From Dichotomicrobium thermohalophilum (GTDB taxonomy: Bacteria; Pseudomonadota; Alphaproteobacteria; Rhizobiales; Rhodomicrobiaceae), in the NCBI RefSeq assembly GCF_003550175.1, contig NZ_QXDF01000001.1:954501-1018500 (forward strand): a DNA stretch of 64,000 nucleotides, written 5' to 3'. Positions 1 through 49,281 of the stretch are shown one piece after another; position 1 is the first letter of the stretch; each line of letters starts with the position of its first letter. The translations under genes were made by a program, and so were the position numbers. The notes under the pieces were generated by a model. The model did not search any database and had not been told where the DNA came from. It was given only the letters and a program-made list of their open reading frames with translations.

Positions 1-996
1 CGGTCCTCGATGATCGGGCTGGAGTTCATCGACGCCTTTGTGGCCAGTCTGTCGCACGCGCGCGCCACTTGGTCGCTCGAACTGTACGCGAAAACCGGTC
101 AGGGGTCGCTACTGGACATCGCGCTCGACACTCTGTCGCAGGGCTGCGCCCATGCCGCGCTGGCGCGCGGGACGGGGGCTGACGCCGATGCGCACCGCGA
201 CAAGGGCCGCGCCCGGCTCGACGCCGCGGTCGACGGCCTGCGCAACGCGGGGCTCGGAGAAAACATCGTGCGTGGGCTGCTCGCGCGCGCCGCCTTCCAC
301 CGCCAGTCCGGCAACCCCGACGCTGCCCGCGCCGACCTGCGCGCCGTGCTCGACGCCGCCACCCGCAGCGAGATGCGCCTCTACCTCATCGACGCGCGCA
401 TCGAAGAAGCGCTGCAATGGCTCACCCTGCCGCCCGACGGCCCCGATCAGCGGCCATCGCTTAACGCTCACTCCGCGCTTGAAGCGGCGGCCGCCCTCAT
501 CAAGGCTACTGGCCTGAAGCGCCGCGAGGCCGATATCGCCCTTGTCAGCGCGCGCCTCGCCCTGGCCGAACGCGCGCCGGAGATCGCCCGCACAGCGCTG
601 GCCGAGGCCATCCGCCTGATCGGCGAGAAAGGCTGGTGGGGTCTGCTGCCCGACCTTGCCGAGCTGATCGAGACGGGCGGCTTTGACGACCTGCGCCCCG
701 ACCTCGACCGCCTGCAGGCCGCTGCTGCCTCCTACCACCGCAAGGCCGACGCCGCCTGGCGCGTCCACGACGCTTACGCCGCCGTCCTCCAGCAGCGCGA
801 ACGGCAACGGCCTGCGCAGCCCGCCGGCCCGAGCGACGCGCAACTCGATCAGATGCTCGCCAACCCGCAGGTTCGCGCCAAGCTCGCCGAGATCCTCACG
901 GCCAACGGCATCGACACGCCGCTGGACGACATGCCGCGCGAAGCCCAGCGCGACATCCTCCGCCAGGTCATCGCCGCGCAGAGCAAGGATCAGTGA
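1..996 (+). CDS. TPR-type helical repeat protein, 5' end outside the window
   Basis: The reading frame is open through the window edge, so this is probably the C-terminal part of a larger protein; the first ATG inside is at 10. The 328 residues visible are almost wholly alpha-helical with Ala/Leu/Arg-rich tetratricopeptide-like units, for example around ARADLRAVLDAA and ARTALAEAIRLIGEKGWWG. Such tails occur at the C-terminus of large NTPase or TIR proteins used in signalling or phage defence, but no N-terminal domain is visible, so that is only a possibility. It lies inside the integrated element, which supports accessory status. No catalytic motif is seen. Confidence 0.6.
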   Translation, partial: RSSMIGLEFIDAFVASLSHARATWSLELYAKTGQGSLLDIALDTLSQGCAHAALARGTGADADAHRDKGRARLDAAVDGLRNAGLGENIVRGLLARAAFHRQSGNPDAARADLRAVLDAATRSEMRLYLIDARIEEALQWLTLPPDGPDQRPSLNAHSALEAAAALIKATGLKRREADIALVSARLALAERAPEIARTALAEAIRLIGEKGWWGLLPDLAELIETGGFDDLRPDLDRLQAAAASYHRKADAAWRVHDAYAAVLQQRERQRPAQPAGPSDAQLDQMLANPQVRAKLAEILTANGIDTPLDDMPREAQRDILRQVIAAQSKDQ

Positions 997-1466
997 TTGA
1001 TCGCGCCGCGCGAGCGCAGCACCTAGCCATCAACCGTGTCACCACGAACGCCCCGTCTATGCGCAACAGGCCCAGCCGGTTCAGATACGCGCCCACCCGG
1101 GCATTGCCAAAGCCACCCCGCCGGAGCGAATGCCATGCGCGGCGTGAATCCCGATTTTCGCCGAGGGTTCCATCAAGCGCGCCGATCACCCAGCCATCCC
1201 AGAGCGCAAGCCGGGGCCGAGCGGCTCTTGCTCCCTTGTCGGATTGCACGCCGCCAGGGAACGGAAGTGGTCACTCGACGCGCCCGCCTGCCAATCTTGG
1301 CAGACTTCGGAATAAAACGCCTTTCGTTGGTCTTCGAGCTGAAACCTCTGAAACAGATACTTTATCCGAAGATGAGGTTGATTTGAGGAGGAACGGCCGC
1401 CTTTAAAGGCTATGGCGGCTTTGCATCTCCACCGATATTTCATTCACATCGTGTGGGTATGAAAGG
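997..1466. other. Intergenic stretch inside the integrated element
   Basis: About 470 bases between the TPR gene and the integrase stop codon. Several short frames cross it on both strands, but none has a recognisable motif together with a ribosome binding site. I see no RNA gene or clear repeat. Confidence 0.5.
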
Positions 1467-2621
1467 TCACCCCTCCATCAGCATTTCCATCGCCTCAGCC
1501 GTGCGCTCGGCCACGTCCTTCGACTGGCCTTCCATCATCCAGGCGTAGCCCTGCGTGGTCTGCGTCGAGGTGTGGCCGAACAGCTTGCCGACTTGATCGA
1601 GCGTGACGCCATTGGACAGCGCCACGGACGCGAAGGACCGGCGCAGATCACGAAGCTGGAGGTCTCGCGCGTCGATGGCCGCGCGCAGCTTTTCCCACGC
1701 GGGCCGTAGGTCATAGCCGCCGAAGATGTACGGGCTGTCCGTGACGCGGTAACGCTGCATCAGCGCGCGGGCCTTTTTCGGGATCACCACCGGCTTGTCG
1801 CCTATGGTGCCAGCCGTTTTGTGATCGTCAAGCCAGATGCGATCGCCGTCTAGCTGCTCGTGGCGCGCCCGCACGATCTCGTTCACGCGCGCGCCAGTGA
1901 ACAGGATTGTCAAGATCGCGGCAACGCGCGCCGGATAGACTGCGGCCAGTTCGTCCACAGCCTCGCGGAAGCGCGGGAACTCGGCAGCGGTCAGGTGCCG
2001 ACGCCGTGGACGCTCGCGGTTGCGGATCGTGCCGCGCACCGGATTGGTGTGCTGGGGCCGGAGCCGAAACCGCGTCTCCGCCAGATTGAACATCTTGTGA
2101 AGCAGGGCGCGCACACGATTCGCCATGATCGGCGCGGGCTTGCGCTGGCCGGGCATGTCGCCGTTGGTGATCCGCTCCAGCACGCGCTCGACATCCTCCA
2201 GCGTCACATCCGCCACCGGCTTCTTGCCAAGCGCGGGCTTGATGTAGGTGTCGATCAGCCGCGCGTCCTCGTCTGCCGAGCCTTTCTTTTTCCTGCGGTA
2301 CGCCCATTCGTTCAGGTAACGCTGCGCAAGATCGGCGACCGTCGCCGGGCGCTCGGTTGGGCGCTTCTCTGCTGGATCATTGCCGAGCGCGACCTGCTCG
2401 CGCATCTTGCGCGCGACGCGGCGCGCATCCTCCAGCGAGAAAGCGGGATAGCCGCCGATCTTCGGCCTGCGCTGCTTCCCGTCCTTTGTGCGATAGAGGA
2501 AGTACCATGCCTTGCGCTTCTCGAAGCAGCGCAACTGGAGACCCGGCACCTTCTCATCCTTGAGCACGTCGCCGGGCTTGGCGATCTGGATGCGTTTTCT
2601 GGTCAGCGTTGCAGTTGCCAT
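1467..2621 (-). CDS. int: Tyrosine recombinase (phage/island integrase, DUF4102 type)
   Basis: A 384-residue site-specific recombinase that would integrate and excise the element. The N-terminus (about residues 5-80) resembles the arm-binding DUF4102 domain of island integrases, followed by a core-binding domain and the catalytic domain. Catalytic residues visible are Arg245 (FTGARVNEI), a Lys near 268, Arg327, His350 (LFGH) and the nucleophile Tyr359 (QGYAW). The usual His of the HxxR box is Arg324 here (RDLRRS), a variant also found in functional members of this group. The gene reads away from the attachment site 175 bases upstream, as expected for an integrase beside its att site. The length is normal and the frame intact. 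Confidence 0.93.
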   Translation of the reverse strand: MATATLTRKRIQIAKPGDVLKDEKVPGLQLRCFEKRKAWYFLYRTKDGKQRRPKIGGYPAFSLEDARRVARKMREQVALGNDPAEKRPTERPATVADLAQRYLNEWAYRRKKKGSADEDARLIDTYIKPALGKKPVADVTLEDVERVLERITNGDMPGQRKPAPIMANRVRALLHKMFNLAETRFRLRPQHTNPVRGTIRNRERPRRRHLTAAEFPRFREAVDELAAVYPARVAAILTILFTGARVNEIVRARHEQLDGDRIWLDDHKTAGTIGDKPVVIPKKARALMQRYRVTDSPYIFGGYDLRPAWEKLRAAIDARDLQLRDLRRSFASVALSNGVTLDQVGKLFGHTSTQTTQGYAWMMEGQSKDVAERTAEAMEMLMEG

Positions 2622-2795
2622 TTTTCCTCTCGTTCCGGGCCCGTTTTCTGGTCACACACTGGTCACGGGCCGTAGCTGTGGTCACACATTGGTCGGAGAT
2701 TTTTTCGCAACGGATGGGATCACGCGTGATACCGATCCGCCTGAAAAACCAAGCTTTTGTGACCGTATGAGAGGACTTGGTGCGGTTTTGGATAA

Positions 2796-2842
2796 GACTT
2801 TTAATCAGTAGGTCGGAGGTTCGAGTCGTCCCGGGGTCGCCA
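2796..2842 (+). other. Attachment site: 3' half of a tRNA-Lys (TTT) gene
   Basis: This holds the anticodon loop (anticodon TTT at 2800-2802), the 3' anticodon strand, variable region, T arm with loop ttcgagt and an acceptor end finishing in gcca. The bases upstream do not pair to form the 5' anticodon strand, D arm or acceptor strand, so it is not a working tRNA gene. A displaced tRNA 3' end beside an integrase is the classic right attachment site. The T stem carries one mismatch (ggagg against cgtcc), which suggests it no longer has to function. Confidence 0.78.
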
Positions 2843-3311
2843 ATAAACTCAATGGGGTTAGGTTGTGAGCCCGGGTGGAACTGGCGTGACCGACCAGGGG
2901 GGAGCACGCCCGCCCTTGAACGGCGGGGCGGAAAGATTCAGCCCTAAATGCGCATGATGTTCGAAGAGGACACCGTGATTCGGTAGGCAGCGCTCTGACA
3001 TGTCTGTCCGAAGGGGAGTCTCGGTGTTTGTTGCTTTCCAAGGAATCCAAGACCGAGCAGCAGCGACGCCCCTTTTCCAGCACCCAGCGAGCCTTGTGGT
3101 TGAGCATTGTGTGTCGGACCAGGGCAAGTGGCCGGAGCGTCTGCGGTATTTTCGCCAAGCCATCATCCTGAGATTTGTCAAAGGCTGCTCTGAGAGGGCC
3201 GGTTGCCCCCGCCTCCTTACCTTCAACTGACGCACAACACCGGTTTGCAGCTATGGATGAAACAGCGCATACTCAGCGGTCTATTCGATTGCCTGCAGAG
3301 AAAAGGCGACA
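2843..3311. other. Intergenic stretch right of the attachment site
   Basis: About 470 bases between the element border and the next gene. Frames on both strands show no recognisable domain. Some may be relics, but nothing can be supported. Confidence 0.4.
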
Positions 3312-3314
3312 GTG

Positions 3315-3944
3315 ATGCGAACGGCTGCGCTCGTTAGACCGGCAGCATTGCCGCACTGTCTGTTCGTGGCTGTTTGCTGTTGGATTTTGCTGAGTCGTGG
3401 AGACACCCAGGCCCGCACCTCTGCCTCACCCTCGGGCACCTACACTGTCCGCATCCCGTCTCAGGCGGCAGAGGAAAAAAGCTCTCCGCGGACCTTCACG
3501 CTGCTCCAGCTCCGCCGCGAAGGATCGTTGCTCCGCGAACATCGCACGTTCGGGTATCTCCTCGACGTTCTCTGGAGTCCCGATGAACGGTGGGTCGCCG
3601 TCAACAACAGGCGGGCCAATTCCGGCGACTATCTCTGGGTCTTGTCAACGTCAGACGGCGAGGCCGTCCGGAAACCGGAAGATGACCTGGAAAGCCGGCT
3701 CCGCGACCAAGCTGTAGCCGACATCGAAAGGCTCGACAAACAGGCGAGTTATGAGACGCTTGATCGTTACTGGATTGATGCAGTTGAATGGAAAGATGCA
3801 AACACTCTGCTTGCCCGGTTTCGCGGGCAGTATTACGCGCAAGGCCGGGTCCTGGGGACGTACCGGTACATCGCGGAAATCACGATAACAGACGGCGCTG
3901 CCGTGCTGGGGGGCTGGACGCGCTTCGTGCCCGACCGGCAATGA
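3315..3944 (+). CDS. Unknown secreted protein with beta-propeller-like segment
   Basis: About 209 residues; GTG at 3312 or the adjacent ATG at 3315 could start it. A hydrophobic stretch (CLFVAVCCWILL) after a short Arg-containing head looks like an export signal. The middle carries a WD40/TolB-like strand pattern (LLDVLWSPDERWVAVNNRR) that often monitors or binds other molecules, but only one or two blades would fit. The C-terminal half is Tyr/Arg-rich with predicted strands. I do not recognise the family. It sits in the accessory stretch and converges with the fascin-like gene. Confidence 0.55.
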   Translation: MRTAALVRPAALPHCLFVAVCCWILLSRGDTQARTSASPSGTYTVRIPSQAAEEKSSPRTFTLLQLRREGSLLREHRTFGYLLDVLWSPDERWVAVNNRRANSGDYLWVLSTSDGEAVRKPEDDLESRLRDQAVADIERLDKQASYETLDRYWIDAVEWKDANTLLARFRGQYYAQGRVLGTYRYIAEITITDGAAVLGGWTRFVPDRQ

Positions 3945-4063
3945 AGCCAATTGATCAGGTCAGCGCCGGCTGGCGGTGCCCGGAGGCCAACACGCCGATC
4001 AAGTGCCTCCGACAGGGTCGCGGAGCAGGTAAATCCGCGGCGCTCATTCTGCATATCTGGCCG

Positions 4064-4093
4064 GGCACGGGGCGAACCGAAACGGCCCGTGCC
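4064..4093. terminator. Hairpin between two convergent genes
   Basis: Perfect 8-base stem ggcacggg/cccgtgcc with a 14-base loop, in the 167-base gap between the stop codons of two convergent genes. No T-run follows on either strand, so its terminator role is inferred from position. Confidence 0.4.
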
Positions 4094-4111
4094 AAACCCG
4101 GTTGAAACGCC

Positions 4112-4597
4112 TCATGGCAGGAGCACGATACTGAGCTTTGGCTCTGCGTCGATACATTCGCGCGCCGTAGCGGAGAGATAGCCCTGTTCCGTGGCGCGAA
4201 CGCATTTTCCACTCTGCACTGACTTGAGCGCGACGGTATTCCCGCTTCCAACGAACTCGAATTGCTCCCAGCCACCAATACGCGAACTGACGGCCGCCAA
4301 CAGGCTGTTCTGCCCGACGCCGGCGCGTACATATTTGCCGTTCTGTTCGGATCTTAGGGCAATCTTTCCGTCGGAGAGCCGAATCAGCGTGAAGGTCTCC
4401 CAGCCTTTGATATGCGGGCTGCCGGTTGCCAACAGTGTGTTCTTAGTGACCCCCGCACGGATATAGGTCCCATCTGATGCTTGTAGCGCGATGCGTTCAG
4501 CGGCGTGAAGCGTGTCCGGCACGAGTGCCGACAAGGCCAAGATGGCGGCTAGGAGAAACGCTCGGCCTGGCAAGATCGTGAAGAAGTTCTGAAACAT
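4112..4597 (-). CDS. Secreted fascin-like beta-trefoil protein
   Basis: A 161-residue protein with a signal peptide (residues 1 to about 32, core AFLLAAILALSALV, probable cleavage after LHA-A). The mature part is three related units of about 38 residues: IALQASDGTYIRAG, IALRSEQNGKYVRAG and VALKSVQSGKCVRA, each followed by a loop with W/F (GWETF, GWEQF). The pattern 'xVALKS..GKYVxA' is that of the fascin/actin-crosslinking beta-trefoil superfamily, which in bacteria often binds carbohydrate or other surfaces. Two cysteines near the C-terminus could form a disulfide. It is divergent from the giant DUF11 protein, also secreted, and they may share regulation. The ligand is unknown. Confidence 0.75.
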   Translation of the reverse strand: MFQNFFTILPGRAFLLAAILALSALVPDTLHAAERIALQASDGTYIRAGVTKNTLLATGSPHIKGWETFTLIRLSDGKIALRSEQNGKYVRAGVGQNSLLAAVSSRIGGWEQFEFVGSGNTVALKSVQSGKCVRATEQGYLSATARECIDAEPKLSIVLLP

Positions 4598-4863
4598 GAT
4601 TGGCCTTCCTGATGCGCCATTTCAATTTGGATCATGCCAGCGCGTTGGGAAGCGGCATTCACAACGATCAAATCGGCGACACAAGACCGATGAATCCACG
4701 ATTTCTCCTTCGCCAGGGAGAGGAATTTCAGCGGTCGTGGATCGGGATAAATTTTGACCGAAAGCATTCGGTATTTCCTGGCGAAAAAACGAGCGAGATT
4801 CTCGCAGGGTTTTTGGCAGTGAAGGCATAGAAAGCGCAGTCGTCGCGCGTTTGGTCGGCCATG

Positions 4864-4877
4864 TTGATTCTTATCAA
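4864..4877. promoter_or_regulatory. Palindromic operator-like site in a divergent promoter region
   Basis: The inverted repeat ttgat-tctt-atcaa lies in the AT-richer middle of the 340-base region separating the fascin-like gene (minus) from the DUF11 gene (plus). Its size and symmetry suit a dimeric repressor, and it loosely recalls iron-type operators. No regulator can be named from sequence. Confidence 0.3.
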
Positions 4878-4903
4878 TTAGGCAGACGCTCATGTCCGGC
4901 TAT

Positions 4904-4924
4904 GGTCACTGAAAAACAGTGACC
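4904..4924. promoter_or_regulatory. Perfect hairpin just before the DUF11 gene start
   Basis: An 8-base perfect inverted repeat (ggtcactg / cagtgacc) closed by an AAAAA loop, ending 15 bases before the ATG at 4940 and overlapping the alternative GTG at 4919. In mRNA it would be a stable stem beside the ribosome binding region; in DNA it could be an operator. Confidence 0.5.
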
Positions 4925-4939
4925 CCCGGAAATTCCACG

Positions 4940-7900
4940 ATGCCTTCGCGCGCCTTGCAAACCGTCCTGACCAGCCTGATCTGCCTGTTCCTTTTCGGAA
5001 CGATGGCCCACGCCCAAGGGCCGGAGGTCAGCGAAGGGACTGCGATCGTAACGCAGTTCTCAGGCGTCACGACTGAAACCGCCGAGACGGGCGAGCCGAG
5101 ACGTGTTCTCGATGTCAGGGGCTCTGTCGTCAAACTGCTCGATGTGAGTGAACTGGGTGGCCCGGCGCAGGGCCAGAGTCTCGCAGTCGACGAGGTTCCA
5201 CTTGGCGTGACCGCAGGCGAAATTGGCCAGGTTTTCGGGATCGCTTACGATGATGCGGATCCAGCCAATCTGTATCTGACGGCGACTTCGGCGTTCGGGC
5301 TGCATCGCACGGCCGATGGCACCGACTGGATGCCCGGTATGTGGGGCCGGGACGCCGGGCCCGGCACCGTATGGAAGCTGAATGCGGACGAGGGCTACGC
5401 GCCGGAGGTTTTCGCGCAGATCACGGCCGATGGGCGGGAGAACACGGGCGCGGCGCTCGGCAACATCGCCTTCGACCCCTGGAACCACCAGTTTTACGTT
5501 TCTGACCTGGAGACCGGATATATCCACCGCCTCGATATGGCGGGCGAAATCATCGGGCGGTACGACCACGGCGTGAATGCCCGAAGAAATTTCGTCGACG
5601 CCAGAACGGGTCGGTCTGACGCCCTTGCACCAGTTGCCTTCGATCCTGAAAGCGCAGCACGCGTGGAGGGCTGTCCCCTCGGCGACTTTTCCAAGACGCC
5701 GGCGTGCTGGAACGTGGCGGATTTCCGGCGGCGCGTCTGGGGCGTGGGCGTTCACCAGGATCCGGAGACCGGTGAGGTTCGGCTCTACTACAGCGTCTGG
5801 TCGAGCCAGCCGCTGGGCAGCGAGGATTTCGAAGCGGCAAGCGCGGAAGAAACCCTCAACACCATCTGGTCCGTGGCCATATCCGCAGATGGCGGCTTCG
5901 ATCTGGACGACATCCGCCGGGAATTCGCCCTGCCGGCATTCTTCGCCCAGGAAAGGGATGTTGACGCTTTCGGTGTGAGCCATCCCGTCTCGGATATCGC
6001 CTTTTCACGCGCAAGGGATGCGAGCATCATGCTGCTTGCCGAGCGCGGCGGGCTGCGCAATCTCGGCCTTGATGCGCGGGCGGCGTTCACGCACCCGCAT
6101 GGCGCGCGCGTGCTGCGCTACGCACAGGACGAAGACGGCGTCTGGCAGCCCGCCGGCCGCTATGACGTCGGCTACTACGACCGGGCGCGGCTGGGCCCGC
6201 CCCATATTCGCGCCAATGCCGCCGGCGGCGTGGATTTCGGTTTCGGTTATACGGAAGACGGCGATATCGACACCGACCGGCCCGAGGCGATGGTCTGGAT
6301 GACCGGCGATGCCCTTTGCACCCCGGAAGCCCCGTGCCGCGACCCGGAGACCGGCCAGCGCACGGAGCGCACGCAAGTCGACGGCTTGCAGGCCACACCC
6401 GTTGAAGCCCTGGACGCGGTCGCACCGGAGGCTGCCAGCGAGCCTTATCCGACGATCGGTCCCGCCTATCCTCCCGAGGGGCCGGATCAGTCATACATGA
6501 TCGAGCCTCAAACCCCGGTTCTGCCAATCCTGATCACTGGCGAGCGCGACGACACCAGCCGGATCGGCGATGTCGCGTTCTACCGTCCCTACCCGGGCGC
6601 GGTCGCGGTTGCTGAGGCGGAGCCGCCGCTTGTCGATTGGGGTATCCCCGAAGGCGTCGTGGAAGAACCGTGGTGGCCCGAGCCTCTGCCCGTTCCCGAC
6701 GACGTGCCGCCTGTCGACCTGTCCGTTCAAAAGGCGATTCCGGCCCCCTGTGTTCCCGGGGGCAAATGCCCTTTCGTCATCATCGTGACCAACACGGGCG
6801 ACCAGCCCTACACCGATCCGATCATGATCTCGGACGTGCTCGCCAACGGATGGACACTGGCCGCCTGGGGGCCGGCGGGCTCGGCATGGGAATGCCAACA
6901 GGATGGTTCCGCGGTGTCTTGCATGCATCCTGATCCTGACCTGAGCCCGGGCGAGTCGGGTGCGGTGACAATCGAACTGGTGGTACCGCCCGCACAAGTG
7001 TCCGGCCAGTGGGATAACTGCGCCGTTCTGGAATTCCCCATGGGCGCCGAGGATGACGACCCGACGAATGACGAGGGATGCGCGCCGATTGCCTTTGGTC
7101 CCGCCGAGGCGAAAGAGCCCGTCGATGGCCGCGATCTCGCGATGCGCAAGATGGCCGGCAACCCAACCTGCACCCCCGGCGTACCGTGCTCATTCACGGT
7201 GGAGATCGCCAACAGGGGGTCAGTGGAGTACAGCGGCCCGTTCCGGATTAGCGAGACGATGCCCGAGGGCTGGCGCTTTGGCGGTCTCGACACGGGTTGG
7301 TGGTGCCTCACCACGGCAGGCGGCGGGCCGCTCGTGTCCTGCTGGCGCGATATCACGCTGAAGCCGGGCGAGGTGGAAAGCCTGAATGTCACGCTGATAC
7401 CACGGCAGACGGGCGCGCATGAGGGGCGCGCCCGTAACTGTGTCGCTATCGACTGGACCCAGATCGAGCAGGACCACGACGCCACGAATGACAGCGCCTG
7501 CGCGGAGGTCGAACTGACGCCCGCGCCGGCCCCTGAACCGCCACCCGGGGCACCGCCTGTCGCCCCGACCGGCGAAGGCATGGTCATCGGCCCCGAAAGC
7601 GTCGGTTACGATTTAAGGATCACGAAAGACCCGCCGCATTCCGCGCAGGCCGCCGCACCGGGCGCCGCGCCGCTGTACGTCTGTGCTCCGCTCAAGCCCT
7701 GTCCGTTCGTCGTGACCATCACAAACCAGGGCGTCAAACCCTACCAGGGGCCGTTCAGCTTCACGGACACGTCGAAGGGGGGCTGGAGCTACGGTGGTAT
7801 CAGCGAGGGCTGGTCATGCGACGAGCAAGCCGGGGGAGGTTTCGCTTGTTCCGGCCAGATCGACCTTGCCCCCGGCGAGTCCGAAACGCTCTCGGTTCAA

Positions 7901-10015
7901 CTCGAACCCATGGCTGGCGTACCGGTCGACCCGGTCGCCGGCGAGAACTGCGTCGAGATCGACTGGGCCGCCATTGACGAGGCTCGCGGCAAGACGGGTC
8001 CACCGGAAGCGGATGAGCGAAGCGACAATGACCGGGATTGCACCCCGGTTGTCCTGGATGTCGCCGCGCCGTCGCCGCCGCCCGGTGCGGACGCAGAGGG
8101 CGTGCCACCGATCCCCGAGCCGGACATCAACGTGCGCAAGCGCGCGGCGACCGATTCCTGCGAACCCGGCAAGCCCTGCTGGTTCATCATCGTCATCGAG
8201 GGAACCACCGACATCCCCTTCGAGGGCGCGTTCTCCGTGACGGACATTCCCAAGGCCAAGCACTGGACCTTCGCCGGGGGCGGCAGGCTGGGCCTGTGGT
8301 CGTGTGACTCGGACAAGGACGGGAACACGACATGCACCTATGACATCGCGAAGAACCCCAACCTGCCGGCGGAGGGACTGACCAAGGACGATCGTGTCGG
8401 TTTTGATATCGCCTTTGATGTGCCGCCGAGCCAGCCCCTCGGGACCGTCCAGAACTGCGTCCTAGTCTCCTTCCCCCCGCCGGCCACGGGCGAAATGAGC
8501 AAATCGACCAAGGTCGTTTGCGCCGACGTGCTGATCGCGAACCAGCCTAAGCTGACCATCGCCAAGCATTTCGACAGCAGCACATGCTCTGCGGGCGGGG
8601 CCTGCAATTTCATTGTGACCGTGAAGAACGAGGGCAAAGGGCCCTATGACGGGCTGCTCACGCTGTGGGACAGGCCCGGCGGCGCCGGTGTCGGTGATGA
8701 CGCTCTGGAGGTGGAATCGGTAACTGCGCCGGGATGGGAATGCCGCACGCATCAGCAGGAACCGTCCTGGACAGAACATGGACGATTCCTCTGCTATGGC
8801 CGGGACATCGAGCCTGGCGAGACCGTCATCTTCACGGCCAAGGCCAGCCTGGACGCAACCGCGAAGACTGGCGAGATCGAGAACTGCGGCGAACTGCACC
8901 TGACGAAGTCGGACCCCGGGAAACTTTCGCAAAGCGACCGGGCGTGGCTCGTCCGGCGATTTCTCACGAGCCAGGGCTACCAGACGACCCCGGAAGCTGA
9001 CGACCGACTGAGCGACCAGGAAAAGAAGGCCCTCGCCGACTACAAGACGAAGAACCCCGTCTTTTCCGACACCAGCGGTGAGATCACCGATGAGTTCCTC
9101 GGGCTGCTGACGCCGTCCGCTGACGACGCATCCGGCAAAGATGTTCTGGAGGCCTGCGACAGCGTCGAGGTCATGCCGAACCTTACGGTGAAGAAAGAAG
9201 GGCCTTCTTCCGAGCTACTTCTCTCAGCCGAGGGCTTTGGTTGCCGGTTTGAACATCGCTGCGGCTACGACATCATTGTCTCGCCGGGCGGAGACCAGCC
9301 CTACCAAGGCCCTATCACGCTGCGGGAGGAACTTCCCAAAGGCTGGGTCCTGGACGATTACTTCCCAAAAAGCGCTACGACCTGGACATGCACCGGCAGC
9401 AACCCGGTCGAATGCAAATATCCGAACATCTCGCTGGCCAAAGGCCAGTCAGCGACGCTGAACCTGACGATCAAGCCGACGACCTCGTGGTATACCGCCA
9501 ACAAAAATGTCCGCCATCCATGGGTTCGGAACTGCTCCTATCTGTTGGTCGACGGCAAGAAGATCGAGCGAGAGCCATACCGATCCTGCTACCGCATGCG
9601 CCTGTCGTTCCAGGATCTGAACGAATGGGACTACGACCCCACCGGCACCGGAAGCTGCACGCCGCCAAACTGCTCCTTCTACCAGTTCACTGCCACTGCG
9701 CGGGAAGAAGCCTATCGCGGTCCGATCCGGATTGAGGTCGACACTCCGCCCGGCTCCGATTTCCCCGAAGCCGAGATCGTCGACGCGCCTGACACATGCG
9801 CCCCGTCACAGTGGACCTGCAGCCGCACCGGAGGAGAGTTCGGCGACAAGCATATCTGCGGTATCGAGGATCCTACCGTGTCGCGGACGCTGCCGCGACG
9901 ATCGCAATCGCGGACGGTACGGTTTTCCAGAATGCGCCCAAGACGTTCACGACCTATCGCTTCATCGTCTGCGCCCCCTAGTCATCGGCCGGGGCGCGGT
10001 CAAAAAGGAAAGTGA
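4940..10015 (+). CDS. Giant secreted DUF11-repeat protein with propeller-like N-terminus; 3' end probably frameshifted
   Basis: About 1,691 residues from ATG 4940; this start gives a good Sec signal (core LTSLICLFLFGTM, cut near AHA-Q), whereas the upstream GTG 4919 lies in a hairpin. Residues about 30-560 form a beta-rich, propeller-like domain (LGNIAFDPWNHQFYVSD). Then come seven Cys-containing DUF11-type Ig-like repeats starting near residues 592, 731, 891, 1062, 1204, 1414 and 1552, each with the pattern C-PG-C-F, N-G-PY, GW, W-C, PGE and NC. Between repeats 5 and 6 (about 1327-1390) is a segment like a peptidoglycan-binding helix bundle. Such proteins are surface or matrix components. 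The last ~45 residues are Arg/Ser-rich nonsense-like, while another frame gives a sensible ending at 9981. Confidence 0.85.
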   Translation: MPSRALQTVLTSLICLFLFGTMAHAQGPEVSEGTAIVTQFSGVTTETAETGEPRRVLDVRGSVVKLLDVSELGGPAQGQSLAVDEVPLGVTAGEIGQVFGIAYDDADPANLYLTATSAFGLHRTADGTDWMPGMWGRDAGPGTVWKLNADEGYAPEVFAQITADGRENTGAALGNIAFDPWNHQFYVSDLETGYIHRLDMAGEIIGRYDHGVNARRNFVDARTGRSDALAPVAFDPESAARVEGCPLGDFSKTPACWNVADFRRRVWGVGVHQDPETGEVRLYYSVWSSQPLGSEDFEAASAEETLNTIWSVAISADGGFDLDDIRREFALPAFFAQERDVDAFGVSHPVSDIAFSRARDASIMLLAERGGLRNLGLDARAAFTHPHGARVLRYAQDEDGVWQPAGRYDVGYYDRARLGPPHIRANAAGGVDFGFGYTEDGDIDTDRPEAMVWMTGDALCTPEAPCRDPETGQRTERTQVDGLQATPVEALDAVAPEAASEPYPTIGPAYPPEGPDQSYMIEPQTPVLPILITGERDDTSRIGDVAFYRPYPGAVAVAEAEPPLVDWGIPEGVVEEPWWPEPLPVPDDVPPVDLSVQKAIPAPCVPGGKCPFVIIVTNTGDQPYTDPIMISDVLANGWTLAAWGPAGSAWECQQDGSAVSCMHPDPDLSPGESGAVTIELVVPPAQVSGQWDNCAVLEFPMGAEDDDPTNDEGCAPIAFGPAEAKEPVDGRDLAMRKMAGNPTCTPGVPCSFTVEIANRGSVEYSGPFRISETMPEGWRFGGLDTGWWCLTTAGGGPLVSCWRDITLKPGEVESLNVTLIPRQTGAHEGRARNCVAIDWTQIEQDHDATNDSACAEVELTPAPAPEPPPGAPPVAPTGEGMVIGPESVGYDLRITKDPPHSAQAAAPGAAPLYVCAPLKPCPFVVTITNQGVKPYQGPFSFTDTSKGGWSYGGISEGWSCDEQAGGGFACSGQIDLAPGESETLSVQLEPMAGVPVDPVAGENCVEIDWAAIDEARGKTGPPEADERSDNDRDCTPVVLDVAAPSPPPGADAEGVPPIPEPDINVRKRAATDSCEPGKPCWFIIVIEGTTDIPFEGAFSVTDIPKAKHWTFAGGGRLGLWSCDSDKDGNTTCTYDIAKNPNLPAEGLTKDDRVGFDIAFDVPPSQPLGTVQNCVLVSFPPPATGEMSKSTKVVCADVLIANQPKLTIAKHFDSSTCSAGGACNFIVTVKNEGKGPYDGLLTLWDRPGGAGVGDDALEVESVTAPGWECRTHQQEPSWTEHGRFLCYGRDIEPGETVIFTAKASLDATAKTGEIENCGELHLTKSDPGKLSQSDRAWLVRRFLTSQGYQTTPEADDRLSDQEKKALADYKTKNPVFSDTSGEITDEFLGLLTPSADDASGKDVLEACDSVEVMPNLTVKKEGPSSELLLSAEGFGCRFEHRCGYDIIVSPGGDQPYQGPITLREELPKGWVLDDYFPKSATTWTCTGSNPVECKYPNISLAKGQSATLNLTIKPTTSWYTANKNVRHPWVRNCSYLLVDGKKIEREPYRSCYRMRLSFQDLNEWDYDPTGTGSCTPPNCSFYQFTATAREEAYRGPIRIEVDTPPGSDFPEAEIVDAPDTCAPSQWTCSRTGGEFGDKHICGIEDPTVSRTLPRRSQSRTVRFSRMRPRRSRPIASSSAPPSHRPGRGQKGK

Positions 10016-10348
10016 CAAGGGGCGCTCAGCCCGACTCCTTCGGCATCCTTCATGAGGGGCCCGGCGAGCCGGATCGCAGCGTCAACGCCCTGCTTCGAGG
10101 CCGTATCGCCTCGCTGTTGCGAGCATCTGCGCAATTCACTATTGAGACGAGGTGAACTGGCTCGGCACGAAACCTGCGGGCAGGGCCGTTTGGCGCATGA
10201 GCGAGAGCATATCTCCGGAAAGTCGCTAAGAGATGCGAGCGATTTCCGATCCAGTCGGAATGGACGGCGCTTCACGCGTGCGCCTGTTCCGGAAAGACAT
10301 CAATCAGGCGCCCTATCTTAACGGGAGCAAGGATAGCCGGGCCAGCCC
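10016..10348. other. Intergenic stretch before pabB
   Basis: About 330 bases. Short frames on both strands lack domains. The pabB promoter should lie in the right part, but I see no clear box. Confidence 0.4.
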
Positions 10349-11491
10349 ATGACGCCTTTCATTCTGTTTGATAAGGGGCCCGGCGCGCAGCCCGCACTGT
10401 TTCGTGACCCCCTGCGGATTATCGAGGCCAATACGCCCGAGGAGGTCGCCCCGGCTTTGACGGCGATCGGGCAGGCGCAACGCGCGGGCCGCTGGCTGGC
10501 AGGCTTCGCCAGCTATGAGCTTGGCTATGTGCTGGAACCGAGTCTCTGCGAGCTGTTGCCCTCTGAGCGGAGGACGCCGCTCTTGCGCTTCGGTGTTTTT
10601 GATGTCCCTGGTCCGGCGGCGGACCTCGACCCGACGATCGCCCATCAAGCGGGAGAGGCCATGCTCCGGGACCCCGTCTGTGACTGGTCCGACGGCGATT
10701 ACGCCGACGCCTTTGATGTCATTCGCGTCGGAATCGCGGCGGGTGATTATTATCAGGTCAACCTGACAATGCGGCTGCGGATGCGCCTGGAGGGCACGCC
10801 TCTGGGGCTCTACGGTGCTCTCAGGCGGCGAAACCCGGTGGCACATGGGGCATACGTGGACCTTGGCCCGCCGATCCTGCTTTCGCGCTCGCCGGAACTG
10901 TTCCTTGAGATCACGCGTGACGGCATCATCAGGACCGTGCCGATGAAAGGGACTGCGCCGCGCGGGACGACGGCCGCGGAAGACGAAGCGCTGCGCGAAC
11001 AGCTTCAAACGGACCCGAAGAACCGCGCCGAAAACCTGATGATCGTCGATCTGCTGCGCAATGATATCTCGCGCATCGCCGAGCCGGGGACCGTACACGT
11101 GCCGAAGCTGTTCAAGGTCGAGAGTTATCAGACCGTTCACCAGATGATTTCCTGCGTGGCGGCGCGGCTGCGGGCCGACGCCGGCATTGGCGACGTGTTC
11201 GCCAGCCTGTTCCCCTGCGGTTCGGTGACCGGCGCGCCGAAGATCGCGGCGATGCGGGCGATCCGGGATGTCGAAATCGGTCCGCGCGAAGCCTATTGCG
11301 GCGCGATCGGCTGGCTCGCCCCGGATGGCCGCGCACGCTTCAATGTCGCAATCCGCACGCTGATGCACTATGCCGATGACGATGTGGTGCTGAATGTCGG
11401 CGGCGGCGTGGTGGCAGACAGCACGGCGGAGAGCGAGTATGAGGAGGCGCTATGGAAGACACGGTTCGCGCTCGGCCTCCCGCAGACCTGA
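10349..11491 (+). CDS. pabB: Aminodeoxychorismate synthase component I
   Basis: This enzyme combines chorismate with ammonia or glutamine nitrogen to give 4-amino-4-deoxychorismate, the first step of p-aminobenzoate and folate synthesis. The 380 residues are the chorismate-binding fold of the PabB/TrpE family: KGTAPRG near 210, the NRAENLMIVDLLRNDISR motif near 230-247, PCGSVTGAPK near 288-300, and YCGAIGW then FNVAIRTL near 320-335. It is shorter than E. coli PabB but typical of the alphaproteobacterial form. The end overlaps the pabC gene by 40 bases, so the two are translationally coupled. No glutaminase gene (pabA) is seen nearby. Anthranilate synthase is the main alternative, made unlikely by the pabC neighbour. 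Confidence 0.93.
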   Translation: MTPFILFDKGPGAQPALFRDPLRIIEANTPEEVAPALTAIGQAQRAGRWLAGFASYELGYVLEPSLCELLPSERRTPLLRFGVFDVPGPAADLDPTIAHQAGEAMLRDPVCDWSDGDYADAFDVIRVGIAAGDYYQVNLTMRLRMRLEGTPLGLYGALRRRNPVAHGAYVDLGPPILLSRSPELFLEITRDGIIRTVPMKGTAPRGTTAAEDEALREQLQTDPKNRAENLMIVDLLRNDISRIAEPGTVHVPKLFKVESYQTVHQMISCVAARLRADAGIGDVFASLFPCGSVTGAPKIAAMRAIRDVEIGPREAYCGAIGWLAPDGRARFNVAIRTLMHYADDDVVLNVGGGVVADSTAESEYEEALWKTRFALGLPQT

Positions 11492-12132
11492 AAGTCATCG
11501 AGACCATGCGCTGGGACCGCGCCTCAGGCTTTGCCAGGTTTGAGCGGCATCTTTCGCGTTGCGCGGCGACCTGCCAGCAGTTCGGCATTCCTTTCGAGGC
11601 TGAGGCCGTGCGCGCCGCCCTTCATCGCGCAGCGACCGGCGCGCACATGCGGGTCCGGCTGACAATCGACCTGAGCGGCCAGATTGAGGTGAAGGCGACA
11701 GAGCTTGCGGGCGAGCCCCCCGCCACCCCGTGGCGCATCGCCTTGTCTGACCACAGGCTGCGTGCGGGCGACCCATGGCTTCGCGTCAAGACGACCAAGC
11801 GCGAAATCTATGACCGCGCGCGCCGCGAGCTGCCGGCCCATCTGAACGAAATCATCTTCGCCAATGAGCGCGACGAGATTTGCGAGGGCACGATCACCAA
11901 CCTGTTTTTCGACTTTGGCGATGGGCTGATCACGCCGCCGGTTTCCTCCGGTGTGCTGCCGGGCGTGCTGCGCGCCGAGTTGCTCGCGGAGGGCAAATGC
12001 CGCGAAGGTCTGGTGAAGCTTGCGGATCTGGACAGCGCTGAAGCGATATGGGCCGGGAACTCAGTGCGCGGGCTGATCCACTGCCGTCTGGTCGGCCAAG
12101 CATCTGCGCCGATCGCCAACGCTGGCAAATAG
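11452..12132 (+). CDS. pabC: Aminotransferase class IV, probable 4-amino-4-deoxychorismate lyase
   Basis: A 226-residue PLP enzyme of fold type IV that would split aminodeoxychorismate into p-aminobenzoate and pyruvate. The motif CEGTITNLFFDFG followed by TPPVSSGVLPGVLR is the class IV signature; the PLP lysine is likely the one in VKTTKREIYDRAR. The ATG lies inside pabB, giving a 40-base overlap in another frame. The fixed order pabB-pabC points to the lyase rather than a branched-chain aminotransferase, which would be longer. Confidence 0.88.
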   Translation: MEDTVRARPPADLKVIETMRWDRASGFARFERHLSRCAATCQQFGIPFEAEAVRAALHRAATGAHMRVRLTIDLSGQIEVKATELAGEPPATPWRIALSDHRLRAGDPWLRVKTTKREIYDRARRELPAHLNEIIFANERDEICEGTITNLFFDFGDGLITPPVSSGVLPGVLRAELLAEGKCREGLVKLADLDSAEAIWAGNSVRGLIHCRLVGQASAPIANAGK

Positions 12133-45444: not shown

Positions 45445-45843
45445 CTAAATCAGAGCGAGTTCGGCGAGCGCCGCGCGCATGCCCGGAGGGATGTCATCAT
45501 TCGCGCCGCTGGCGAGGTCCGGCGGCGCATCCTCCGGCTTCAGATAGCGCCAGCCCTGGAACGGGCGGCGGGGGCGCGGCTGCACCGGGATCAGTTCCGG
45601 CGCGAGCACGATGGCGCATAAGGCTCGCCCGTCATGGTCGGTTTCGGCGCGCAAGTCGCGGATCGGCTGGCGTGCCTGGATCACTCCCTTGATCACCCAA
45701 TAGAGCGAGCCGCCGTCCTTGAGCGCGTCGGCCTGGCGCGGGAACTGGCGCGTTCGATGCACGATCTCGCTGCCGCGCCGGGCGATCCGCCGCTCCTGAT
45801 CCTCGATGCTTTCGACTCCAACGCAAAGCTTGATGAGATGCAA
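45445..45843 (-). CDS. DUF1489 family protein
   Basis: About 132 residues from TTG 45843, with ggaggg five bases before it; a longer ATG frame to 45909 lacks this. The beginning HLIKLCVGVESIEDQERR and the sequence SLYWVIKGVIQARQPI, then GWRYLKPEDAPPDL, are the DUF1489 (COG5458) signature. The family is restricted largely to alphaproteobacteria and has no known function. No membrane segment or signal is seen. It ends opposite panC and follows, in its direction, a membrane protein. Confidence 0.82.
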   Translation of the reverse strand: MHLIKLCVGVESIEDQERRIARRGSEIVHRTRQFPRQADALKDGGSLYWVIKGVIQARQPIRDLRAETDHDGRALCAIVLAPELIPVQPRPRRPFQGWRYLKPEDAPPDLASGANDDIPPGMRAALAELALI

Positions 45844-45960
45844 TTTCGCCCTCCAAACGCTTGCGGCCAGACCACCGCAGAGGATCGGCGGTCTGGCCGC
45901 GACGCGCAAGGCGGGGGCGTCAATCCGCGTGGGATAAGCGGGCGCTCATCCACAGTCGCG

Positions 45961-47112
45961 TCAGGCGAACGCTTCGTCGCCTTCCTTCTCCTTCTCGGCC
46001 TCAACGTCCTCCTCGTCGAGCAGGCGGATGCCGATATAGCGGATGCGTCCGCCGATCTTGGCCTTCTGCACGCCGAGATCGGCGAATTGCCGCCCGAAGA
46101 TCGGCAGGCTGACCGGCGTCTTGTCCTTCAGGTCGCACCAGTTGCAGTAGTCCTCGAACAGCGCCAACGCGGTGACGCTGGATTCCTTGGACTGCTCGAC
46201 CCGCTCGTCGAAATACATCTCCACGTCGGTCTTCTCGTAGGGCAGCTCCGCTTCGTCCGGCGCGACCAAGGCGGGCAGCGTGCGCTTCGGCGGCGCCACG
46301 GTCTCGACCGGCGCAGGCACGCCCAGCGCCTTGTCATCGAAGATCTTCCAGTGGCTCAGCGCGACATAGAAGCCGAGCGCCGATCCTGCCTCGACCAGCA
46401 CCGAGACGAGAATGATCAGCGCAAGCTGCACGCGGTCCGTGCCCAGCCCCGAGATGTTCGAGAGGATCGCCGCCTGCGGGTCGGCCTCGGTCGCCGGGCC
46501 GGCGCCTCGCAGCTCGTTCAGCTCGGCACGCACCGCCACGATCCGGTCATCGAGCTTCGCGGCCTTTTTCGCCGCGGCCAGCTCGGCTTCCAGCGCGTGG
46601 AATTCGCGGCAGTAGGCGATACTCTTCGGCACTGTCGCGTTGGTACAGCCGACCGTGGAATCCCAGCGGCGGTGCTGCTTCATACGGTCGATGTTGCTTT
46701 CGACCACGCCGGCCGGCCGATGCTGTGGCAGCCCCGCCATCTGGTCGCGCAAATACTGCAGTTCCGAGCGCAGGTCCTTGTAGGCCGCGGCGGTGACGGC
46801 GCGCTCGTTCACGGTGTCCGTGCGGTTGAGCGCGGCGAAGCCGAGCGAGGAGGTGAGCGAATAGGACGCGCAGATGGTGAGCAGCAGGATCGCGCCCAGC
46901 GCCTGCGACCACTGGCGGCGCCTGAAGGCGATCAGGATCAGGAATGGAATCAGCGCCTTGAGAACATCGGATGCCGCGCTGGCGGCGCCGTAGATGTGTG
47001 CGTCAAATTCCGTTTTGCCGAGACTGAAGCCGAAACGCCAATTCATCGCCGCGGATACCACAAGCAGTATGGTGGCGGCGAAAACCCCGAGAACCCCCAG
47101 AACGTGTCTCAT
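45961..47112 (-). CDS. Membrane coiled-coil protein with primase-like winged helix
   Basis: About 383 residues from ATG 47112 (MRHVLGVLGVF). Three membrane segments lie in the first ~100 residues, then a long charged helical stretch with a possible coiled coil (ELEAELAAAKKAAKLDD near 190) and a fourth segment near 240-265 (LALIILVSVLVEAGSALGFY). The cytoplasmic C-terminus, about 325-370, reads ALFEDYCNWCDLKDKTPVSL then FGRQFADLGVQKAKI-GGRIRYIGIRL, close to the winged helix at the end of D5-type phage and plasmid primases. The layout recalls proteins of mobile elements, but no phage genes flank it. Function unknown. Confidence 0.7.
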   Translation of the reverse strand: MRHVLGVLGVFAATILLVVSAAMNWRFGFSLGKTEFDAHIYGAASAASDVLKALIPFLILIAFRRRQWSQALGAILLLTICASYSLTSSLGFAALNRTDTVNERAVTAAAYKDLRSELQYLRDQMAGLPQHRPAGVVESNIDRMKQHRRWDSTVGCTNATVPKSIAYCREFHALEAELAAAKKAAKLDDRIVAVRAELNELRGAGPATEADPQAAILSNISGLGTDRVQLALIILVSVLVEAGSALGFYVALSHWKIFDDKALGVPAPVETVAPPKRTLPALVAPDEAELPYEKTDVEMYFDERVEQSKESSVTALALFEDYCNWCDLKDKTPVSLPIFGRQFADLGVQKAKIGGRIRYIGIRLLDEEDVEAEKEKEGDEAFA

Positions 47113-47559
47113 CGAAACAGCCCCCTGTCTGCCGCTTAATGCAGCCTTATCGTCCTTGGGGGCCTGGCGAAGGCGTTGCGCGGGCGTACGCGACTCGGTG
47201 CAGGCGCGCATCAGCGCCCGGTCGGAAATATTCAGATGAACGCAAAACGACTGCCCCGTCGCGAGTGTCCAGTCACGACGCGCTAGCCTGATGAAGGCTT
47301 TTCCGGCAGGGACGTCAATGTTGCCGCATCTGTCCCCAACTCCGCCTCGTCACACTCCCGGCCGCCCGTTCGCCGTTCTTGTTTGACCGAGAGTGTTCGA
47401 ATCGGCGGGCCGGAAAAATTGAAGTGAGTCAGGCCCCCTCACTCCAAAAGATAGCTGATTCGCGGCGGTCAAGGAAAGGCGGTGATTTGCCCAGATGTTG
47501 TGGCGTTGTCCCCAATACTTCGCCCATTTGGTCACAGGCGGGGAACAAGGGGTTGAGAG
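47113..47559. other. Intergenic region upstream of the primase-winged-helix gene
   Basis: About 450 bases between two minus-strand genes. The word tgtccccaa occurs twice (near 47333 and 47508), and an imperfect stem agtgag/ctcact lies near 47424-47444. No gene is seen; the promoter of the downstream gene must be here. Confidence 0.4.
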
Positions 47560-49281
47560 TCAGCGCGTCTCGCTCTCGGGCATCTGCTTCAGGCGGTGGA
47601 GCAACGATCCCGGGGAGGCGTCAGATTCAGCGTTGTCGTTGGCCCGAGACGACTCGGGGGTGGCCACGCCATTGCCCGACGAAGTTGCCATTTCGCCCGC
47701 GGCCGTGCTGGTGCTCTCACTTTCCTCTGGTGTCGCGGAGGCTGATCCGGTTTCACCCTCTGTGGCCGAAGGGCCGGATTCCGAGGCGTCAGCGTTGCCG
47801 GACGGAGGCGTCTCGGGCCCGGCCGGATCCTCCCTCAGCTTGCCGGAGGTGAGCTTGGCGCTGCGGTAGCGGTCATAGAGACTGCTGTCCTCATCAGGTT
47901 CCTCGCCGCCCACTTGCGTCGTCGCTTCCGCCTGAGGCTCGGTCGCCGGTCCTTCCTCTGGCGCAGGTCTGTTCGTTTCGAGGAACGATTGCGGCTCGGT
48001 AGCGGCGACATCCGCCTGCAGGCCGGGATCTCCGGCCCCTGAAACTCCGCCCGCCAGTGTTTTCGGCTCCTGCTCCGACTCCTGCTCGCTCGGGCCGAAA
48101 TCGCCGACGCGCCTAGGCTGCGCTGGATGGCCCGACAAAGCCGCGCCACCGAGCAGCCGGGCCGCGCTCACCTCCCCCGGCGTCGGTGCCGCCGGGTCCG
48201 GGTTATGTCCGCTGCCGGAAGCGGCGCTGGTCTTTGCGTTCCGGTTTGCGCCCGCAAGCCCGGCAAGCTTCTGCATAGCGCCACGAGCGAGACGCTTGGG
48301 CGCGGCAGCCGCCCGGGCGAGGGTACTGCCCGAACGTGGCGCGCGCGCAGTCTTCGCAGCCGGTTCAGCAAGAGCCGGTACGCGGGAGCTGCCGGCGGTG
48401 TCGGCGATAATCGCATCGATCGAGCGCATCAACGCATCCGTGTGCTGGGCCGGCGCGCTCAGCCGGCGCGGCTCATCCTCCGAAGTGTCATGCGCGATCG
48501 CTCGCTGCGGCTCGCTTTCGGGCAGTGCGGACGCCGTTGTCACGACCTGGTCCGCGAGCTGCTGCAGCTCGGTGCGGAGTTCCTTGATCTGGTTCGCCTC
48601 GCGGTCATAGGCGACGGCCAGCCGTTCGCGCAGCTTCGACAACTCGACATTCAGCCGGTCGTATTCCGCTCGGTAATCGTGGATGGTCCACTCCGTCGGC
48701 CGCAGCTTGAAGCGGCCTGCATTCTGCGCGCCGGACATTTCCATGGCCTGGCGCAGGCGCGCGATCTCGGCCTGCTGCATTTCGGTGGTGCGCTGGGCGA
48801 TGGCGAGTGCCTCTTCGCGATGGCGCAGCCGGTTGACGATGGTATCGATCTCACGATCGCGGACATGGACGAGTTGCCTGGCGTCCTCTGCTGCGCGATT
48901 GAGCTCCGGGACGCGCGTGGCGATCGTTCGCCGCAGGACTGAGGCGGCGTTATGCTCGGCTTCGAGCTGGCAGCGCAGCTTCTGCGTTCTGTCGTTGAGA
49001 TCGGCGATTTCCATCTGCAGCCGGCTGATTTTCACTAGCTGCCGGGCCGAGCGCATCTTTTCCTGGGACAGCGCCGCTTCCAGCCGGCGGATGATGATGG
49101 CGTAGCTGGCGCGGATCTGATCGCGCTCGGCCTCGGCCTCGGCGATCGACATGGGCATGCTCTGTTCAAGCCGACGCGCCGTCAGCCGCTCTGCGCGGCG
49201 CCAGAAGGCCGGCGCCAGCAACAACGCGATGAGCATCGCGATCAGGAAGCCCAGCGCGACCAGCATGACGTAAAGGATCAT
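47560..49281 (-). CDS. Membrane-anchored coiled-coil protein with long disordered tail
   Basis: 573 residues. One N-terminal membrane helix (MILYVMLVALGFLIAMLIALLLA) is followed by about 230 residues of charged heptad-like helix (SRLQMEIADLNDRTQKLRC, ELSKLRERLAVAYDREANQ), then some 300 residues rich in Ser, Glu, Pro, Gly and Ala with no fold. The family seems confined to alphaproteobacteria. The shape is that of a cytoplasmic scaffold or spacer fixed to the inner membrane. Function unknown. Confidence 0.7.
   Translation of the reverse strand: MILYVMLVALGFLIAMLIALLLAPAFWRRAERLTARRLEQSMPMSIAEAEAERDQIRASYAIIIRRLEAALSQEKMRSARQLVKISRLQMEIADLNDRTQKLRCQLEAEHNAASVLRRTIATRVPELNRAAEDARQLVHVRDREIDTIVNRLRHREEALAIAQRTTEMQQAEIARLRQAMEMSGAQNAGRFKLRPTEWTIHDYRAEYDRLNVELSKLRERLAVAYDREANQIKELRTELQQLADQVVTTASALPESEPQRAIAHDTSEDEPRRLSAPAQHTDALMRSIDAIIADTAGSSRVPALAEPAAKTARAPRSGSTLARAAAAPKRLARGAMQKLAGLAGANRNAKTSAASGSGHNPDPAAPTPGEVSAARLLGGAALSGHPAQPRRVGDFGPSEQESEQEPKTLAGGVSGAGDPGLQADVAATEPQSFLETNRPAPEEGPATEPQAEATTQVGGEEPDEDSSLYDRYRSAKLTSGKLREDPAGPETPPSGNADASESGPSATEGETGSASATPEESESTSTAAGEMATSSGNGVATPESSRANDNAESDASPGSLLHRLKQMPESETR

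Follow-up and report, generated by a model that had tools for sequence, protein, structure and literature searches.

Locus organisation and predicted membrane topology

The window analysed here is a 64,000-nucleotide stretch of the Dichotomicrobium thermohalophilum genome. On its minus strand, a single open reading frame at 45961-47112 (stop codon included) encodes a protein of 383 amino acids, P0001, a membrane protein with a predicted winged helix. The start methionine was chosen from the alignment, most relatives in alignment A2 aligning from the same residue, and a longer frame from 47211 exists. Opposite the gene, a frame of 501 codons is open on the plus strand (45634-47139) and is probably a by-product of high G+C content. 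A repeat search found a 15-nucleotide inverted repeat (45863-45900), 60 bases past the stop codon of P0001, which is a possible terminator hairpin. It is flanked by panC and by a gene for a coiled-coil protein (both named by reading), and these two neighbours of P0001 were not found at the other loci compared, which mostly had short flanks. The next gene upstream (47560-49281, minus strand) encodes a protein of 573 amino acids with, by reading, a hydrophobic segment at its N-terminus and an extended, charged helical stretch; it was not beside the family gene in other compared loci.

A first-pass annotation of this DNA had claimed four membrane segments and a helical stretch, and both were borne out. 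Hydropathy placed the membrane segments, all coordinates being on the minus strand, at residues 4-22 (TM1, 47047-47103, hydropathy 2.55), 45-63 (TM2, 46924-46980), 72-90 (TM3, 46843-46899) and 230-248 (TM4, 46369-46425), and residues 97-225 (46438-46824) between TM3 and TM4 are helical in the AlphaFold model. A linker follows TM4 (residues 255-292, 46237-46350), with pLDDT below 50 at 259-292 and fast evolution in relatives, and leads to the C-terminal winged helix (residues 293-366, 46015-46236). A net positive charge was found for the TM2-TM3 loop in 29/29 sequences of alignment A1 and 26/26 of alignment A2 and for the TM1-TM2 loop in none of either (0/29 and 0/26); because of this charge bias the N- and C-termini are predicted to be cytoplasmic and therefore the region from TM3 to TM4 is predicted to be periplasmic. 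The loop charges thus do not predict the topology that would contradict the first-pass annotation, a periplasmic C-terminus, and they would put the linker and winged helix in the cytoplasm.

Alignment A2, whose 26 rows do not include the relatives carrying other HTH-like tails, has invariant residues in and around these segments: D49 and K52 in TM2, G91, R132, E177, A179, D211-P212-Q213, L239, E241 in TM4, and G247. R132, E177 and D211-P212-Q213 belong to the helical stretch, as do C156 and C168, which are kept in at least 90% of the rows. No known family accounts for this membrane half in the libraries searched. No Pfam or NCBIfam match to it reached cut-off, every PHROG match (E up to 0.01) of visible position lay in the tail with none placed in the membrane half, and outside the tail ten divergent relatives gave only weak Pfam matches. 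A fold search with the membrane half, which was modelled at low confidence, returned helical rows at the level of common arrangements.

The C-terminal tail resembles primase and RFX winged helices

The claim that the C-terminus is a primase-type winged helix was supported by profiles, by the predicted fold and by structure matches, with the domain lying slightly earlier (about 293-366) than the span of about 325-375 first suggested. A profile check of the tail against primase winged helices matched: residues 289-374 hit the PHROG DNA primase profile phrog_1829 at E 8.9e-6. Amongst 26 diverse members of the family, 20 matched phrog_1156 and seven matched Pfam Pox_D5 (best 4e-6); P0001 alone matched nothing in Pfam up to E 0.01, Pox_D5 included, and its NCBIfam matches were far below cut-off. 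In a reverse search the family tail profile matched residues 785-856 of an 882 amino acid frame (L141), a true primase by Pfam with Prim-Pol, D5_N and Pox_D5 in that order. P0001 itself had no Pfam or NCBIfam match to a D5_N/helicase or Prim-Pol domain, and its primase matches were confined to about residues 280-375. A phage family of unassigned function, phrog_7601 (289 positions), has the same domain as the tail close to its own C-terminus; it was matched by 4/26 members, and for L053 and L015 the match was located in the tail.

The AlphaFold model, made with 29 sequences as input, had a mean pLDDT of 70.1 and a pTM of 0.35 for the whole of P0001, and the tail was predicted as helix-strand-helix-helix-hairpin at pLDDT 84-89. 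VIA-align placed RFX1 on DNA at the top (Z 10.7, 1.9 A over 70 residues) with RFX5 (Z 10.7), followed by the tail of the African swine fever virus (ASFV) PrimPol (8iqi, Z 10.0) and the P4 origin-binding domain (1ka8, Z 9.0, 3.0 A over 77 residues). Foldseek likewise ranked RFX1 first, though at E 2.2e-3, and a profile search of solved structures found RFX1 at E 0.0026, a weak sequence similarity. According to one report, the tail of the ASFV protein folds like both the P4 origin-binding domain and RFX1 (PMC10516667). In the model, helix 3 (residues 336-344, 46081-46107), at the recognition-helix position, holds R341, and the wing hairpin (residues 349-364, 46021-46068) holds K350, K352, R356 and R358. 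Basic residues are conserved at K350 (29/29), at position 352 (K or R, 29/29), at R358 (28/29) and at position 341 (K or R, 29/29), and the winged helix taken whole is net positive in just 6/29.

Two sets of domains come closest to the tail. With the C-termini of D5/P4-type primases (Pox_D5, the P4 alpha origin-binding domain 1ka8 and the ASFV PrimPol tail) residues 293-366 share both sequence and predicted fold, but P0001 is without a primase or helicase domain and has the tail joined to four membrane helices. The RFX DNA-binding domain (RFX1, 1dp7; RFX5) is the best structural match, with weak sequence similarity, but RFX is a eukaryotic soluble transcription factor that has no membrane part. 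The tail is thus an already known domain that occurs here in a new context, on a membrane half with no accepted match in the libraries searched, and a search of the open-access literature returned no paper describing this protein by title or abstract. The architecture, the predicted topology and the conserved wing charges support the suggestion that a DNA-binding domain is put at the membrane, and from them we infer that the tail would bind DNA.

Taking these features with the genomic evidence below, we give about an even chance to the reading that P0001 is a membrane-anchored, site-specific DNA-binding protein which holds a DNA site at the membrane. Its main rival, which we consider rather unlikely, is a membrane-integrated one-component transcription regulator whose periplasmic part senses an envelope signal and whose cytoplasmic winged helix controls promoters, with the mobile relatives regulating the genes of their elements. 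In favour of such a regulator is the predicted joining of a cytoplasmic winged helix to a periplasmic part in which two cysteines are conserved. It would work in the manner of ToxR or CadC with the order of its parts reversed, since ToxR/CadC-type regulators also combine a cytoplasmic winged helix and a periplasmic part in one membrane protein. ToxR and CadC carry an N-terminal winged helix and one transmembrane segment; the P0001 winged helix, however, is C-terminal, comes after four transmembrane segments, belongs to another family and has no such Pfam match. The usual tail of the family is of the primase or replication-initiator type, which is not a common bacterial regulator type, and the charges within TM2 and TM4 (D49, K52 and E241, invariant in 26/26) would not be needed by a plain anchor.

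A core gene under purifying selection in Hyphomicrobiales

The membrane half was found in 41/297 genomes drawn from the order, a further 24 matching in the tail only, as primases would. Amongst 289 genomes drawn from the class, the membrane half was present only in the window's own genome and six others were tail-only. Matches were found in 8/8 genomes of the window's own family and in 98/103 genomes of a second family (that of genome G008), including all 76 of good quality (completeness of 90% or more, contamination of 5% or less), a few of these 76 matches being fragments at a contig edge (e.g. in G625 and G627). The five genomes of that family with no match are 54-84% complete. At least two families of the order thus have the P0001 gene in their core. 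Named contigs with a match, where ranked, belong to the class Alphaproteobacteria and the order Hyphomicrobiales (three bear no rank), and their genera include Hyphomicrobium, Methyloligella and Rhodomicrobium; H. facile DSM 1565 (L059) and H. zavarzinii ATCC 27496 (L037) are among the strains with the core gene. A tblastn search with P0001 gave no match to any of 72,556 plasmid records or 50,697 phage records, and three mobile relatives had no match among the plasmid records. Up to seven family matches were found within one genome.

The core set examined consisted of 35 loci of close relatives, a subset of those available, and the family tail profile detected the winged helix in all 35 copies. 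Within one genus omega was 0.00-0.05 for both the membrane half and the tail; in three other genera it was at most 0.21 for the membrane half and 0.29 for the tail in pairs with computable dS, several pairs in the comparison being saturated. The linker was looser in relatives (mostly 0.1-0.5). The low omega in the tail shows that it is kept by selection, and both domains are under purifying selection. The idea that the gene is a leftover of a mobile element was wrong in this respect, as the omega values and the core presence of the gene lead us to reject a decaying remnant.

The same stretch as the core gene also held what we take, from sequence and with no profile, to be a NAD kinase-like gene (14/35 loci) and a CutA-like gene (11/35), across several genera. 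Footprinting upstream of the core copies picked out for the most part the region of ribosome binding, along with a single block in Hyphomicrobium and, in one genus, a stretch of general similarity. The Hyphomicrobium-type block, about 100-150 bases upstream in L091, L093 and L123-L132, was by eye common to most of the 12 aligned loci and could be a promoter or a binding site. Upstream repeats exceeded dinucleotide shuffles (threshold below 5% of 500) in 0/13 core regions, and those of the window did not exceed them either, which counts against a transcription regulator and also against a protein that holds a DNA site.

Divergent copies lie on mobile elements

Forty of the divergent matches found were taken as a second set, and their neighbours were compared with those of the 35 core loci over about 0.6 Mb for each set, using composition-based gene calls and single-linkage blastp clusters. 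A tyrosine integrase was present at 9/40 divergent loci, a coupling ATPase at eight, a relaxase at six and a resolvase at four, against 0/35 core loci for each; any of the four was present in 21/40 divergent and 0/35 core loci (Fisher 1.3e-7). None of the four clusters was found in the other 19 divergent loci within the stretch examined, some of these loci being on short contigs, and the divergent loci are partly non-independent (L104 and L105 carry identical membrane halves). To verify the cluster names, one to three members of each cluster were compared with Pfam, giving T4SS-DNA_transf (1.9e-40), Relaxase (4.6e-15), Phage_integrase (9.2e-21), Resolvase (5e-46) and RepA_C (2.3e-20); a second coupling protein was also confirmed by Pfam, the ParA-like cluster matched MipZ and VirC1 too, and a small cluster read as MobC had no Pfam match. 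As to where homologues lie, then, core copies are chromosomal with none of the four mobile-gene clusters in the stretches examined, divergent copies are on integrative elements (21/40 with such a cluster), and one further relative is in a phage-like stretch.

That last copy, L143, was the one relative found in IMG/VR (1 of 89 candidate stretches), and at least one family copy does lie in a phage-like region. The L143 stretch (3-11643) carries ERF, GcrA, HNH and DUF1376 genes. Its membrane half is followed by a long tail in which no Pfam or PHROG match was found. In two genomes of one genus (L067 and L068) an integrated element combines a RepA-type gene (by Pfam in L068, by cluster in L067), a ParA-like gene and the family gene, and the L067 integrase adjoins a tRNA-Met gene.

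A ParA-like gene was present in the stretch at 10/40 divergent loci and at 1/35 core loci, where it is about 14 kb away. At six of the 40 divergent loci a ParA/MipZ-like gene lay within 316 bp of the family gene, in divergent orientation in five; directly beside core copies no ParA-like gene was seen (35 loci). ParA-type partition systems comprise an ATPase, a DNA-binding adaptor and centromere repeats; the six pairs are compatible with the first-pass suggestion of a role in chromosome or plasmid positioning. Iteron-like short repeats lie between the ParA-like and family genes in L071 (10065-10111) and L078 (8963-9165), the sequences differing between the two. Intergenic repeats were above dinucleotide shuffles in 2/5 of these ParA-family regions (0/500 shuffles as high for L071, 6/500 for L078). 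The divergent arrangement leaves a shared promoter region, and this and the repeats would suit a transcription regulator as well; against a regulator, the genes that recur beside the family gene on mobile elements are ones for handling DNA.

At the loci with a coupling ATPase, its gene was on the strand of the family gene in 8/8, the relaxase gene being on the opposite strand in 6/6, and a transmembrane segment was predicted in 0/8 of the coupling proteins (the one in L062 called from an internal start). These loci suggest that the family protein could be an independent membrane-bound partner of coupling ATPases lacking a transmembrane segment of their own, as with TraI and TraJ of pIP501, its winged helix reading the transfer site and the core copy being a relict. 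Coupling proteins of this kind, some of them working with small membrane proteins, are described in one report (PMC7434980). The eight loci share with the pIP501 TraJ/TraI type a coupling ATPase with no predicted transmembrane segment near a separate protein with several; the family protein differs in that it mostly carries a DNA-binding-type domain. The coupling gene is found in 8/40 loci only, L104 and L105 being near-copies, two of the eight family proteins (L110 and L111) have no tail-profile match, and the core families keep the family gene with the coupling cluster in 0/35 core loci, so that we regard this explanation as very improbable.

A role in replication control is likewise improbable, if a little less so. 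Here the membrane-held winged helix would bind the origin of the element, or pair with the winged helix of a primase, and so limit initiation, the core copy doing likewise for some origin of the host. The closest sequence kin of the tail are primase C-termini, a primase-type gene lies within about 3 kb of the family gene in L074 and L077 (by Pfam) and L080 (by cluster only), and the RepA genes of L067 and L068 would fit as well. However, these three are the only primase-type neighbours amongst those identified at the 40 mobile loci, several relatives carry other tails, and the neighbours of the core copies, which were clustered and partly annotated, included no primase that came to notice.

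Alternative tails on the same membrane half

The tail profile matched 22/40 divergent copies and did not match 18/40, some of the latter being cut by contig ends or by broken frames, and one of them (L122) still giving a weak Pox_D5 match (0.036). Other tails resembled HTH_Crp_2 (L114, 2.3e-4), HTH_28 (L116, 9e-4) and MarR (L113, 0.029), all below the Pfam cut-offs. L117-L119 share another tail, for which L117 had no Pfam or PHROG match, and L110 and L111 end, by reading, in arginine-rich tails. The few tails weakly like MarR- or Crp-type regulator HTH families are a further point in favour of a transcription regulator. As a whole the family gives the impression of a single membrane platform to which various DNA-reading ends are attached, the DNA reading of the ends other than the usual winged helix resting on weak matches.

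Relationship of core and mobile copies

Trees of the membrane half place the core copies next to one another, amid mobile copies of much greater diversity, a pattern consistent with capture by the host. A single core clade appeared in 32% of 200 bootstrap trees and is compatible with the AU test (p 0.439). A very long mobile row, L114, joins the core copies in the careful tree, which left out 13/73 rows (mostly broken or long-branched) and was rooted at the midpoint only, and in a quick tree of all 73 rows L079, also a long mobile row, is placed between core rows. The suggestion that a mobile-element gene was taken over by the host is upheld as far as the relationship goes, there being relatives on integrative elements and a core gene in the host. 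The direction from mobile element to host is likely on the midpoint-rooted tree, in which support for the core clade is modest, and on the far greater diversity of the mobile copies.

A possible membrane tether for DNA

Under the reading that P0001 holds a DNA site at the membrane, the four helices would anchor the protein in the inner membrane, its helical periplasmic part may bring about oligomerisation, and a particular DNA site would be held there by the cytoplasmic winged helix on its flexible linker. On integrative elements the family protein would serve the element's own DNA. Together with an adjacent ParA/MipZ-like ATPase, with which it may make contact, it could position or partition that DNA; with a relaxase and a coupling ATPase that has no transmembrane segment, it could deliver the DNA to the membrane to be transferred. 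The ends fitted onto the common platform would vary from element to element, and in at least two families one form would have settled in the chromosome as a core gene, there most likely tethering a chromosomal site. Weighing against this reading are the net charge of the winged helix as a whole (positive in 6/29), the core copies having none of the four mobile-gene clusters nearby, intergenic repeats above shuffles in no more than 2/5 of the ParA-type regions, the HTH matches of other tails below the Pfam cut-offs, and the divergent copies with no tail-profile match (18/40) or no mobile-gene cluster (19/40).

A bolder version, which is speculative and in our estimate rather improbable, is that the family forms a new modular class of membrane DNA tethers, with a four-helix platform of invariant charges, varied ends and either ParA-like ATPases or coupling ATPases with no transmembrane segment, of which the host-captured form is indispensable in Hyphomicrobiales and pins a chromosomal site, perhaps for passage into the bud. 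The Hyphomicrobiales families with the gene include budding, hypha-forming genera such as Hyphomicrobium.

Bacterial proteins known to fix specific DNA sites to the membrane are few, and here a core gene of two families puts a replication-initiator-type tail on a membrane platform. If confirmed, tethering by P0001 would represent a route from mobile-element machinery to the organisation of the host chromosome, and would provide a testable gene for it in bacteria such as Hyphomicrobium.
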